DNA from: Advenella sp. FME57
GTDB taxonomy: Bacteria > Pseudomonadota > Gammaproteobacteria > Burkholderiales > Burkholderiaceae_B
Assembly (NCBI RefSeq): GCF_014897675.1
Contig: NZ_JABUXU010000024.1
Location: forward strand, 1 to 41,085
Length of the DNA: 41,085 bases
Direction: 5' to 3'
Part shown: positions 34,975-41,085 of the stretch, piece by piece
Layout of the letters: the number at the start of each line of letters is the position of its first letter
Position numbering within the stretch: position 1 is the stretch's first letter
Made by a program: the position numbers and the translations under genes
Notes under the pieces: model-generated
What the model saw: the letters and a program-made list of their open reading frames with translations, nothing else
Database searches by the model: none
What the model was told of the DNA's origin: nothing

Positions 34975-36807
34975 TCAATATACGTCGCGCTGATAGCGGT
35001 GCGACTCGCGCAGCTCATCCAGATAGGCATCGGCATCATCAACACTGAGCCCGCCCTCGCTGGCGATCACCTCAAGCAAGGCCGCTTCAACGTCTTTAGC
35101 CATACGACTTGCGTCACCGCACACGTACAGATGCGCGCCCCTCTGCAGCCACTGCCACAGCTGCGTGCCTTCCTGCAGCAACTTGTGCTGGACGTAAACT
35201 TTTTCCTGCTGATCACGCGACCATGCAAAACTGTAGCGTGACAAACGCTCGGACTTGGCCAACTGCTGCCATTCGAGCTGGTATAGAAAATCATCCTTGA
35301 AGGATTGGTTGCCAAAAATGAGCCAGTTGTCCCCTTCCTGGTCTTGGGCATCGCGTTTCTGCATAAATGCGCGAAACGGTGCAATGCCAGTGCCGGCCCC
35401 GATCATGATAATGGGCGTTTGTGCATCCTGGGGCAGACGAAAGTGCGCCGACGGTTCGATAAAAATATCCACTTCATCGCCTGCTTCCAGACGACGATTC
35501 AGGTAACCGGAAGCCCCACCCTGATACTGTATCGTATCCTGCTCATACTCCACCAGGGCCACGGTGATGTGGACCTCGTCACCCACCTCTTCCTGCGCCG
35601 AAGCAATGGAATACAGGCGCGGGGTAAGCGGGCGCAGCAAATTGCACAACTGCTGCGCTGTCAGCACCTGCGGCACCCTTCGGAGCACCGTATCTATAGG
35701 CGTATCGGCGATATAGTCCTGCAATGCCTTGTTGTCGGCAACCAGCTCAAGAAGACCCGGATCCTGGGTAATCTGTGCATATCCCTTCACAAAGGCCGGC
35801 GTGTTTTGGGTAATGTCCAGATGATGAATCAGTGCGTAGCGAACCCCCACCTGTGTCTTGCCATCGGCCAGCGTCACATTTGCGGCGCCATCGATCCCGG
35901 TCGAGGACAAAATCGAATCAACTAGCGCCGGGTCATTGCGAAACCAGACACCCAGCGCATCGCCAGGCTGATAACGGATACCGGAGTCAGCCAGATCAAA
36001 TTCCAGATGCCGTACATCCTTGAGCGAGTCGCGACTGGTGATTTTCTGGTTGGTCAGAATGGTGGCAGTAAACGGTTTTTCCCGCGTGTAAATTTGCGCA
36101 TGCACCTGCGGTTCATTGACCAGGCCACTGACACTGGCGGGCGCTGAAGTGGCTGCCGTATTGCTGCTTTCGTGTTCGACCAGCCAGGCCACTGTTTTTT
36201 CAACCCACTGGTCAGCCGTTGCCTGGTAATCCAAGTCGCAGTCTACACGCTCAAACAGACGCTGCGCGCCCAGTTGCTCCAGACGCGAATCGAAATCCTT
36301 GCCCGCCTGGCAAAAATCAGGATAGGAACTGTCTCCCAACCCCAGCACTGCAAACTGCAGGGATTTGACCTCGGGTGGCTTCTTGCCGAACAGCGCCTTG
36401 TGCAATGTCAGCGCCTCTTCAGGTGGTTCACCATCGCCCTGGGTCGAGACGACAACCAGGACAAGCCGCTCCGAAGCGAGCTGCCGGCTTTTGTAATCGC
36501 CCGCATTTTTGAGCACCGATGCGACCCCGGCGGCCTTCAGTTTATCCTGCAACGACTGGGCAACCCGGCGTGCATTACCGGTCTGGGATGCCGACAATAT
36601 CAGTACCGGACTGGCCTGTTCCGGCGTGCCGGGCGCTGCTGCAACACTGGCACTGGCGGCGACAGGTGCATCCATCTGCTGGCTGCGTGCCCATAAATAG
36701 CCGGACAGCCACGCTGTCTGCAACGGATTCAACCCCGAAAGGTTCTTCTGCAATTCGGATAGCGTATCCGAATTGATCGGCAAGCCCGATAGTGGTGGAT
36801 AACTCAT
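34975..36807 (-). CDS. cysJ: Assimilatory sulfite reductase (NADPH) flavoprotein alpha subunit
   Basis: 610 residues from the ATG at 36807 (MSYPPLSGLPINSD), with AGGGAAA upstream; a TTG frame at 36834 is not conserved. The FMN-binding flavodoxin domain (about 65-215) has SASQTGNARRVA, STQGDGEPPEEA and GLGDSSYPDFC. The FAD-binding connecting domain has RLYSIAS, and the NADPH-binding domain has GAGTGIAPFRAF and the C-terminal DVY. It passes electrons from NADPH via FAD and FMN to CysI. The two genes form an operon transcribed away from cysG. Confidence 0.96.
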   Translation of the reverse strand: MSYPPLSGLPINSDTLSELQKNLSGLNPLQTAWLSGYLWARSQQMDAPVAASASVAAAPGTPEQASPVLILSASQTGNARRVAQSLQDKLKAAGVASVLKNAGDYKSRQLASERLVLVVVSTQGDGEPPEEALTLHKALFGKKPPEVKSLQFAVLGLGDSSYPDFCQAGKDFDSRLEQLGAQRLFERVDCDLDYQATADQWVEKTVAWLVEHESSNTAATSAPASVSGLVNEPQVHAQIYTREKPFTATILTNQKITSRDSLKDVRHLEFDLADSGIRYQPGDALGVWFRNDPALVDSILSSTGIDGAANVTLADGKTQVGVRYALIHHLDITQNTPAFVKGYAQITQDPGLLELVADNKALQDYIADTPIDTVLRRVPQVLTAQQLCNLLRPLTPRLYSIASAQEEVGDEVHITVALVEYEQDTIQYQGGASGYLNRRLEAGDEVDIFIEPSAHFRLPQDAQTPIIMIGAGTGIAPFRAFMQKRDAQDQEGDNWLIFGNQSFKDDFLYQLEWQQLAKSERLSRYSFAWSRDQQEKVYVQHKLLQEGTQLWQWLQRGAHLYVCGDASRMAKDVEAALLEVIASEGGLSVDDADAYLDELRESHRYQRDVY

Positions 36808-37149
36808 TTGTCTGATTTCCCTGCGCACGGACAATACTCACCCAGTAGAATGCCGGTCGTCAGAACCGTGCCCTGGGCGGCTTGTCACTCATTGTTTACT
36901 ATTTATGTGGACGATTTACTATTTATACGGGTTTCATCCTAGCAACGATTGCGCACTGCACGAACGACAGATATGTCATTTCAACATTACCTCTATCTAT
37001 ATAAGCCTGCCAGGTATGTGATACCTTCTTATTACTGAAAGATCTAAGCTACAAGCAGATATATATTTTTCGATTATTTGTAAAAACACTACGATTACAG
37101 ATGCAATAACCATATAACCGCCCTTCTCTCACATTTGACTCGAAACACG
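36808..37149. other. 342-bp divergent regulatory region between cysJI and cysG
   Basis: No ORF is supported. The region is AT-rich and should hold both promoters. Visible elements are a 12-bp direct repeat, TTTACTATTTAT, at 36895-36906 and 36915-36926 (20-bp period), and a 15-bp palindrome AGGTAT-GTG-ATACCT at 37012-37026. Either could bind a LysR-type regulator such as CysB, but I have no direct evidence. Confidence 0.55.
36895..36926. repeat. 12-bp direct repeat with 20-bp period upstream of cysJ
   Basis: TTTACTATTTAT occurs at 36895-36906 and again at 36915-36926. On the minus strand each copy reads ATAAATAGTAAA and contains TATA/TAAA-rich -10-like sequence, so the two copies may be paired promoter elements or adjacent activator sites. 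Confidence 0.65.
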
Positions 37150-38565
37150 ATGCAGACCTTTCCCTTATTTGCCAATCTCGCAGGACGTCCCGTACTGGTG
37201 ATTGGCGGTGGCACAGTGGCCGAGCGCAAGACGCACGCCCTGCTTGATGCCGGCGCCTGCGTACACCTGGCAGCCCCGGAGCTGACACCACAACTGAAAT
37301 TATGGACAGAACAGGGCAAAGTATTGCTGCGCGGGCAGCAGTTTGAAGCCCAATGGCTCGACGACGTATTCCTGGTTGTGGCGGCCACCGACGATGCCGC
37401 TGTCAATCAGACCGTATCGGATGCCGCCGAAGCTCGTAAAAAACTGGTCAACGTCGTGGACAATCCACAACTGTGTTCGTATATCGTTCCGTCGGTGATC
37501 GACCGTTCGCCCGTGCAAATTGCCATTAGCAGCAATGGCACGGCCCCGGTGCTTATCCGGCAATTGCGCCAGCAACTGGAAACACTGATTCCCCAGCAAT
37601 TCGGCAATATGGCCCAGATTGCCGGACGCTGGCGTGGCAAGGTCAAGCAACAACTGGGCTCCCTGACGGAACGACGACGCTTCTGGGAAATGCTGTTCAG
37701 CAGCCGCTTTGCCGATGCCGCGCAGTCGGGCGACACGGCGGGCGCCGAGGCGTTGCTGCAGGCGCAACTGGCTAGCGGCGTGCCGCAACAAGGCGAAGTC
37801 ACACTGGTGGGCGCTGGTCCGGGCGACCCCGGGTTGCTTACCCTGAACGCCCTGCAGGCCGTTCAACAAGCCGATATTGTCTTTCATGACGCACTGATTT
37901 CAGATGAAATAATGACACTGATCCGCCGCGATGCCGAGCGGGTGCCGGTGGGCAAGCGCGGTGGCCACCATTCTGTGCCACAGGACCAGATCAATGAACT
38001 GTTGATCAGCCACGCCAGAAAAGGCCTGCGCGTGGTGCGGCTCAAGGGCGGTGATCCTTTTATTTTCGGACGTGGCGGCGAGGAAATGCAGGCAGTCACC
38101 GACCAGGGCATTGCCTGTCGGGTGATTCCGGGTATCACTGCCGCACTAGGCGCCTCTGCCTATGCCGGCATCCCGCTGACCCATCGCGACCATTCGCAAT
38201 CGGTTCTGTTTGTTACCGGCCACACCTGTCGTAACGAAAATGCGATTGACTGGGATACCCTGGCTCGGCCGCGTCAGACCATTGTGGTCTACATGGGCAC
38301 CGTTAATGCGGCCAGAATTACCCGCGAACTGACGCAGCGTGGTCGTCGTGCCGACACGCCGGTTGCCGTGGTCAGCCATGCCACACGCGCTTCACAAAAA
38401 GTGTACGCGGGCACATTGGCCGATCTGCACGCCCTGGCCGCGCAGGCCGCAGCGCCGGCTCTGTTCATCATTGGCGAAGTCGCTGCAGTACAGCATGAAT
38501 CCCGGCTTTCTGGCGTAAACAGCGTGGCCAGCGAAACTAACAGCGTCATTGCAAACGCCGCCTGA
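37150..38565 (+). CDS. cysG: Siroheme synthase (trifunctional)
   Basis: 471 residues from the ATG at 37150 (MQTFPLFANLAGRPVLVIGGG); the TTG frame at 37135 adds five unlikely residues. The N-terminal precorrin-2 dehydrogenase/ferrochelatase half has the NAD motif VIGGGTVAERK. The C-terminal uroporphyrinogen-III methyltransferase half begins with GAGPGDPGLLT (about residue 220) and contains VRLKGGDPFIFGRGGEE and PGITAALGASAYAGIPLTHR. It converts uroporphyrinogen III to sirohaem, the cofactor of CysI encoded divergently. Pairing of cysG with cysJI is consistent with sulfite assimilation. Confidence 0.97.
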   Translation: MQTFPLFANLAGRPVLVIGGGTVAERKTHALLDAGACVHLAAPELTPQLKLWTEQGKVLLRGQQFEAQWLDDVFLVVAATDDAAVNQTVSDAAEARKKLVNVVDNPQLCSYIVPSVIDRSPVQIAISSNGTAPVLIRQLRQQLETLIPQQFGNMAQIAGRWRGKVKQQLGSLTERRRFWEMLFSSRFADAAQSGDTAGAEALLQAQLASGVPQQGEVTLVGAGPGDPGLLTLNALQAVQQADIVFHDALISDEIMTLIRRDAERVPVGKRGGHHSVPQDQINELLISHARKGLRVVRLKGGDPFIFGRGGEEMQAVTDQGIACRVIPGITAALGASAYAGIPLTHRDHSQSVLFVTGHTCRNENAIDWDTLARPRQTIVVYMGTVNAARITRELTQRGRRADTPVAVVSHATRASQKVYAGTLADLHALAAQAAAPALFIIGEVAAVQHESRLSGVNSVASETNSVIANAA

Positions 38566-38704: not shown

Positions 38705-38711
38705 TCCCAGT

Positions 38712-40765
<2,054 letters not shown>

Positions 40766-40886: not shown

Positions 40887-40915
40887 TTGACAGCTAGGGA
40901 TATATTTTGTAAATT
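40887..40915 (+). promoter_or_regulatory. Candidate promoter of the antisense RNA
   Basis: A perfect -35 TTGACA (40887-40892), a 17-bp spacer and TAAATT (40910-40915, four of six) point rightward. Transcription would start near 40922 and run antisense through the small ORF. Confidence 0.55.
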
Positions 40916-40925
40916 AAAACCTGAA

Positions 40926-40950
40926 ACCGGTGGGGTACGTTCCCACCGGT
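40926..40950 (-). terminator. Candidate terminator of the small-ORF mRNA
   Basis: ACCGGTGGG/CCCACCGGT is a perfect 9-bp stem with a 7-nt loop. On the minus strand it begins six bases after the small ORF's stop codon and is followed by TTTCAGGTTTTAATTT, an interrupted U-rich tract. On the plus strand there is no U-run. Confidence 0.5.
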
Positions 40951-40956
40951 CCCTGA

Positions 40957-41034
40957 TCAATAAGCTGGGGAGCTATACACTGGCATCAACAGCGATATAC
41001 TGATCAGGATAAGTTGTAATACGATTTGCTTCAT
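40957..41034 (-). CDS. 25-residue hydrophobic peptide, candidate Ibs-like type I toxin
   Basis: ATG at 41034 to TGA at 40957. The peptide begins MKQIVLQLIL, continues with Ile, Ser and Leu, and ends SSPAY; it is a single predicted membrane helix with one basic residue at the N-terminus. AAGGAGG (41046-41040) lies five bases upstream, the strongest ribosome binding site in the window. The start codon sits in a hairpin (ATACGAT/ATCGTAT) nested in GATAAG/CTTATC. E. coli Ibs toxins are 18-19-residue hydrophobic peptides that end in a similar Ser/Pro-Ala-Tyr and are opposed by Sib antisense RNAs; the resemblance is in kind and is not a demonstrated homology. It could also be a membrane microprotein of other function or a leftover signal peptide. 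Confidence 0.55.
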   Translation of the reverse strand: MKQIVLQLILISISLLMPVYSSPAY

Positions 41035-41049
41035 CGTATCCTCCTTATC
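41008..41049. promoter_or_regulatory. Nested hairpin covering the small ORF's start and ribosome binding site
   Basis: Inner stem ATACGAT (41019-41025) / ATCGTAT (41033-41039) with a 7-nt loop, and outer stem GATAAG (41008-41013) / CTTATC (41044-41049). In the minus-strand mRNA the AAGGAGG and the AUG lie inside this structure, so translation would be restrained. The same fold in the antisense RNA offers a loop for initial pairing. Confidence 0.6.
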
Positions 41050-41054
41050 AGGCA

Positions 41055-41080
41055 GGGCCCGGCTTCGGTCGGGCCCTTTT
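41055..41080 (+). terminator. Rho-independent terminator with UUCG tetraloop
   Basis: GGGCCCGGC (41055-41063) pairs with GTCGGGCCC (41068-41076) around a UUCG loop closed by C-G, an exceptionally stable hairpin, and TTTT follows (41077-41080). The U-run is on the plus strand only, so it ends rightward transcripts: the candidate antisense RNA or thiC read-through. Confidence 0.85.
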
Positions 41081-41085
41081 ACCGT

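Follow-up and report, generated by a model that had tools for sequence, protein, structure and literature searches.

The window, meaning the whole stretch of DNA that was analyzed (41,085 nucleotides), corresponds to the entire contig C34 of Advenella sp. FME57, whose genome comprises 59 contigs and 4.74 Mb. Advenella is placed in the Alcaligenaceae, Betaproteobacteria, by the NCBI taxonomy. Close to the right end of the window, downstream of thiC, an element was found at 40887..41080 that combines a short hydrophobic ORF on the minus strand with the signals of an opposing RNA on the plus strand. The features of the region are as follows:

38852..40765, plus strand: thiC (NCBIfam), the upstream neighbor; in two relatives, arrays of the element lie just downstream of it
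40887..40915, plus strand: antisense RNA promoter TTGACA-N17-TAAATT, the best of 3 promoter-like sites (0.4 expected)
40922..41081, plus strand: predicted antisense RNA antitoxin of about 160 nt with deduced ends, complementary to the whole ORF and its ribosome binding site (RBS)
40926..40950, no strand assigned: post-stop hairpin, the first hairpin of the antisense RNA and terminator-like on the toxin strand
40957..41034, minus strand: toxin-like ORF of 25 codons plus stop, with one hydrophobic stretch and ending SSPAY
41008..41049, minus strand: outer stem, in which 41044-41049 pairs with 41008-41013, including the 5' part of the Shine-Dalgarno (SD) stretch
41018..41040, minus strand: start-codon stem-loop, in which 41040-41033 pairs with 41025-41018; codons 2-3 form its variable loop
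41046-41040, minus strand: RBS AAGGAGG, with the ATG 5 bases downstream
41054..41080, plus strand: CUUCGG hairpin and short U run, then the tail ACCGT; presumed terminator of the antisense RNA

The ORF, read from 41034 to 40957 on the minus strand, translates to MKQIVLQLILISISLLMPVYSSPAY. A reading made from the letters of the window (hereafter the sequence-only reading) had described 25 hydrophobic codons preceded at five bases by AAGGAGG, and a start region folded in two nested stems. Both observations held, the first in the sequence itself and the second by folding and by alignment of the copies presented below, in which the RBS is kept with few changes. The start-codon stem (z-score -3.2; 3 of 200 shuffled sequences equally good) is nested within the outer stem, which counts six pairs in the consensus and four when the toxin strand is folded as a single sequence. 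Folding of this strand gave a z-score of -6.3, with none of 200 shuffles as good. A toxin promoter was absent from the window, and the position at or beyond its edge that had been assigned to this promoter proved right, as the contig ends before any. Inspection by eye revealed a CAGAATA-like box ca. 85 nt before the ATG, common to most of the 25-codon paralogues, which may be the -10 element of the toxin promoter. In the more distant genome G916, discussed below, TTGACT-N17-TATAAT was seen by eye on the toxin strand.

On the plus strand, the TTGACA-N17-TAAATT promoter was confirmed and is mostly conserved among copies, with spacer or box variants in some. Confirmed as well was the hairpin just past the ORF stop, which carries a U-rich tail and appears as terminator-like for the minus strand in the terminator scan. 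The UUCG-loop terminator claimed for the other end was upheld in part: the hairpin is present at 41054-41077 and is strong (-21 kcal/mol, z-score -3.8), but a simple scan for terminators passed over it, the stem being followed by only four T. This hairpin differs in C28-type Advenella copies, named after another contig of the same genome. From the positions of promoter, ORF and hairpins alone, it follows that the antisense RNA would overlap the entire ORF and RBS, and the proposed length of about 160 nt fits these positions. Folding of the predicted RNA gave a z-score of -6.8, matched by none of 200 shuffles.

Searches of 61 genomes at the DNA level returned 39 matches, located in six of the ten Advenella genomes, a set that includes A. 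incenata DSM 23814 (G001) and A. kashmirensis W13003 (G003); the 51 genomes outside Advenella gave none. Because it recurs 39 times in six genomes the element is not a product of chance, and the multiple chromosomal copies looked for in the sequence-only reading are there. Plasmid and phage collections gave no blastn match at 1e-5. Carrier genomes have 3-10 matches each, neighboring ones lying ca. 340-1240 bp apart, and in five of the six there are 5-10 full copies, broken ones counted. The genome of FME57 itself holds at least five full copies, the six matches being the window, two on C51 ca. 920 bp apart, one on C29, one on C28 and, where contig C43 ends, a fragment of 54 bases. As to the intergenic position expected of Ibs/Sib, three of these five copies are clear of stop-to-stop frames of at least 100 codons, and the other two overlap such a frame by 73 and 112 nt. 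The four Advenella genomes with no match are smaller (2.6-3.3 Mb vs 4.3-4.9 Mb).

In G001 and G007 a three-copy array sits downstream of thiC; the window aligns with its right end to one side of this array and C43 with its end to the other, so the contig of the window probably ends where assembly failed within a tandem array. As to the remaining surroundings, cysJ (minus strand) and cysG (plus strand), identified with NCBIfam at 34975-38565 of the window, adjoin thiC, and a TPP riboswitch-like element precedes thiC at 38708-38804 on the plus strand (42.4 bits; Rfam cut-off 54.3).

The 39 matches comprise 33 intact ORFs, five broken ones and one cut by the contig end. The intact hydrophobic ORFs have 25 codons in 23 cases and 22 codons in ten. 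ATG, frame and stop are thus kept in 33 of the 38 uncut copies, and disruption of the frame in close relatives, raised beforehand as a possible objection, is confined to five: a duplication, a nonsense codon, two truncations and one frameshift. Included among them are all three matches of Advenella sp. S44 (G009; L042, L043 and L044), as if the family were being lost in this species. The stop position is identical in the 33 intact copies, after -PAY in 32 and -SAY in one, which excludes that the ORF is the 5' part of a longer secreted protein. If substitutions were random, 10.7 of the 23 and 4.1 of the ten ORFs would stay open at the distance from the consensus that was observed, these sets having been chosen as intact and the estimate made without a tree, so that the fair observed figure is 33 of 38. 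Between intact copies, pN/pS was 0.55 and 0.50 for the two length classes and 0.62 and 0.61 for the core; judged from these intact copies, selection on the peptide looks moderate, a point counted against the reading as an Ibs/Sib module.

Structural evidence was drawn from an RNA alignment of the 33 intact copies only (A2), with the caution that kinship among sequences can beat shuffles without structure. Conserved hairpins and covariance had been put forward as marks of such a module and were found: 97.1% of the cells are paired, and both partners have changed in 12 pairs, against a shuffled mean of 6.7, with none of 500 shuffles reaching 12 and slid controls giving 1-4. Seven of the 12 belong to the post-stop hairpin (helix 1), in which 7 of 9 pairs changed on both sides. 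The start-codon stem (helix 5) is 100% paired, with one A-U to G-C exchange in 6 of the 33 copies, and the outer stem (helix 4) is 98.3% paired with no covariation, its pairs being invariant or nearly so. One of five covariation measures, that of further pair types, was not above shuffles (215 of 500) and likewise counts against the Ibs/Sib module. The most variable of 11 stretches were the loop of the post-stop hairpin (1.63 bits) and the start loop (1.14 bits); the stems of the same two hairpins showed 0.14-0.56 bits.

The relation to Ibs/Sib was analyzed with models built from either side. The Rfam model SIB_RNA (RF00113, cut-off 56 bits) aligned to the window over its whole length at 19.9 bits, and in the ten Advenella genomes nine of its ten rows at E<=1 fell on these loci. 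Its alignments pair one -35 box with the other and make the toxin stops coincide. All these rows are below the cut-off, with a top score in Advenella of 26.5 bits, and at E<=1 the model also matched one of 14 non-E. coli control genomes, Sulfolobus, once; both facts were counted against the assignment. SorX, SorY, Yar_2 and other sub-cut-off Rfam matches were taken as chance. In the opposite direction, a model made from the 33 Advenella copies with the promoter left out (R1) was searched against seven E. coli K-12 stretches and three other loci (342 kb). SibC, E, B, D and A were the top five of its eight matches at E<=10, and in four of the Sib matches neither end was more than 2 nt away from that of the RNA as annotated. 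No match was obtained at ldrA-D, shoB/ohsC, tisB/istR or hokA, all of which lie inside the searched stretches. The R1 scores on Sib are weak (14.3-25.2 bits), again a point against, and the lowest, that of SibA (14.3), is one bit above the best non-Sib match (13.3).

A third model (R3) was built from E. coli and from two further families, called here after the genomes G916 and G543, without Advenella sequence. Searched against the ten Advenella genomes at E<=1, it gave 37 rows, of which 34 were known loci, ranks 1-31 being all known, and 34 of the 39 Advenella loci were recovered; in the 41-kb window the element was the only match at E<=10 (5.6e-7). The other three rows (G006:3095841, G002:C6 and G008:C14) were taken as strays; a scan of the first of them showed no such ORF. 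The independence of R3 is incomplete, as 20 of the 25 sequences in it had been collected with R2, a joint model that includes Advenella copies and G543 sequences. This reservation is offset by RF00113, which has no tie to Advenella and by itself recovers 16 of the 20, with place and strand in agreement (9 of 9 in the G543 family and 7 of 11 in the G916 family; best score 55.0 bits, cut-off 56). R2 and R3 rest mostly on sequence, as their automatic structures keep 15 and 5 pairs, and the E-values of the models are rough owing to a short calibration. At the protein level, hhalign found agreement between the peptide profiles in 11 columns at the C-terminal end (P 2.2e-6, probability 89%). Four peptides compared with Pfam and NCBIfam gave no family match, which was counted against the assignment, and an MgtU profile gave a weak peptide match below the cut-off (E 0.27). 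The sequence-only reading had left the choice between a betaproteobacterial Ibs/Sib-like module and an independently evolved one; the former is supported, the reciprocal model searches favoring relatedness over independent origin.

The likeness extends to anatomy. In E. coli ibsA-E/sibA-E and in Advenella alike, the antisense RNA covers ORF and RBS, a TTGAC promoter occupies the same position, a hairpin lies past the toxin stop, a similar terminator is followed by a CCGT tail, and an -AY or -TY end is common (-AY in all 33 intact Advenella copies). The sibA/B and sibD/E genes are in tandem with the ORF inside the antisense RNA, as are Advenella copies. E. coli and the G916 family have in common with most Advenella copies the Y-stop region, the promoter position and a terminator loop of CNUCGG type followed by an [A/C]CCGT tail; C28-type copies and G543-family members are devoid of the CNUCGG-type terminator. 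By contrast to the 18-19 residues of E. coli Ibs, Advenella toxins have 22 or 25 and are 3-7 residues longer, which counts against membership; they also differ in the outer stem at the SD, the higher copy number and scores below the RF00113 cut-off. Ldr/Rdl, ShoB/OhsC, TisB/IstR and Hok/Sok share with the predicted Advenella module the combination of a small membrane toxin and an RNA antitoxin, and ldrA-C are in tandem like the Advenella arrays. However, Rdl, OhsC and IstR as annotated do not overlap the ORF of the toxin, unlike the predicted Advenella antisense RNA. Another Ibs-like small ORF outside the enterobacteria comes from Histophilus somni, a gammaproteobacterium. Its HSP5, reported in 2012 from RNA-seq, has a predicted IbsB3-like peptide, but is 57 nt long, and the accessible account of it describes no antitoxin (PMC3262788).

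Beyond Advenella, distribution was surveyed in wider samples. In a class sample of 369 genomes, RF00113 at E<=0.01 matched three, none above the cut-off and the genome of the window not among them, and R2 matched three, namely the window's genome and G543, both of which had supplied model sequences, and G552. In an order sample, R2 matched two of 399 genomes, the window's and G916, the latter from another family, independent of the model and scoring 59.9 bits. R2 found matches in 14 of 83 genomes of the G916 family and in 47 of 140 of the G543 family, G543 included; our guess is that these families are Neisseriaceae and Pasteurellaceae. Fifty distant matches were read (all 20 rows of the G916 family and 30 of the 68 rows of the G543 family), and 46 contained a hydrophobic ORF and an RBS-like stretch at the expected place, compared with 64 of 7494 places picked at random within these loci that passed the filter. 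These 46 ORFs encode 18-24 aa, and 41 end in -AY, -TY or -VY. In a sample of Advenella's own family the element was present in 6 of 268 genomes, all of them Advenella, besides one chance match. Among single candidates, a 26.1-bit match in G182 was dropped as a UUCG hairpin following a coding region, and G574, from the class sample, had no convincing ORF and no R2 match. A weak Ibs/Sib-like locus in the 1.5-Mb genome G552 (L104, 1501-1679) has an in-frame stop at codon 3 and was left as broken, the sequence past this stop being inspected by eye but kept out of the analysis. Among the titles and abstracts listed in literature searches, none dealt with Ibs/Sib in Advenella or other betaproteobacteria, an earlier mention being possible.

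Combined, these results are best explained if the element of the window belongs to the Ibs/Sib family as a chromosomal type I toxin-antitoxin module, a reading to which we assign a probability of about 0.84. The Advenella loci are additional members of this known family, with longer toxins and more copies. IbsC is described as depolarizing the membrane (PMC8309996), and Sib as covering ORF and RBS with two recognition domains, one of them over the translation start, the duplex with the toxin mRNA being likely processed by RNase III (PMC4147584). By analogy, the 25-residue hydrophobic peptide would insert in the inner membrane and depolarize it, and the antisense RNA of about 160 nt, by pairing with the mRNA of the toxin, would keep ribosomes from binding and lay the duplex open to RNase III; transcription, repression and toxicity in Advenella are likewise what we infer from these relatives. 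Since the start codon and part of the SD lie in the nested stems, the toxin mRNA would probably be self-restrained. The variable start loop of Advenella falls at the position of the second Sib domain, which suggests pair-specific recognition; through this loop (codons 2-3) and that of the post-stop hairpin, each antisense RNA might know its own toxin mRNA.

A type I module that had evolved independently and reached the Ibs/Sib layout by convergence would work by the same mechanism with no common origin. Constraints such as strong promoters, hairpins and short hydrophobic ORFs are common, peptides of this length do not permit a firm test of homology, and Advenella stands alone in its own family sample; yet RF00113 and R1, built from opposite sides, each detect loci of the other, as does R3 with the reservation given above, terminator loop and tail, Y-stop region and promoter position are shared, and members of 18-24 aa exist in another family of the same order, so that convergence is improbable. 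Relatedness to Ibs/Sib, together with up to 10 copies per genome and the breakage of every copy in one species, as for a dispensable or harmful gene, also weighs against a hydrophobic regulatory peptide that is no toxin and is placed under antisense control; toxicity is a prediction here and the MgtU match illustrates that other short helices look alike, but such a role is very unlikely. That the locus is a structured repeat or an sRNA whose other strand carries an ORF by chance is hardly credible, for although the copies are structured repeats with stems among the best conserved stretches, ATG, frame and stop are retained against the random expectation and the distant matches carry the ORF at the expected place.

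With the element read as an Ibs/Sib module, this family, best known from E. coli, appears to reach well beyond gut bacteria, Advenella being an environmental genus. Type I systems have been described as phylogenetically narrow, perhaps owing to search methods (PMC12390103); here, sequence-structure models carry Ibs/Sib from E. coli to Advenella and to the G916 and G543 families. We give even odds to a broader picture in which Ibs/Sib is a beta- and gammaproteobacterial family and not an enterobacterial speciality, expanded in Advenella to as many as ten copies per cell (eight intact) that variable RNA loops would insulate from one another, its patchy spread reflecting transfer or repeated loss. 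Distribution and copy number are the interesting part of the Advenella finding. With such a divergent set, covariation, recognition loops and limits to toxin length become testable, and genomes that carry as many as ten related pairs lend themselves naturally to the study of how antisense RNAs avoid cross-talk.

Two further observations concern the distant loci. In the G543 family, five units (L095, 1219-1432, L128, L132, L133 and L139) lie just downstream of two tandem tRNA genes. In G1054, a single contig encodes four diverse Ibs-like peptides (L113, L123, L125 and L127), of which that of L125 is close to the E. coli Ibs peptides.
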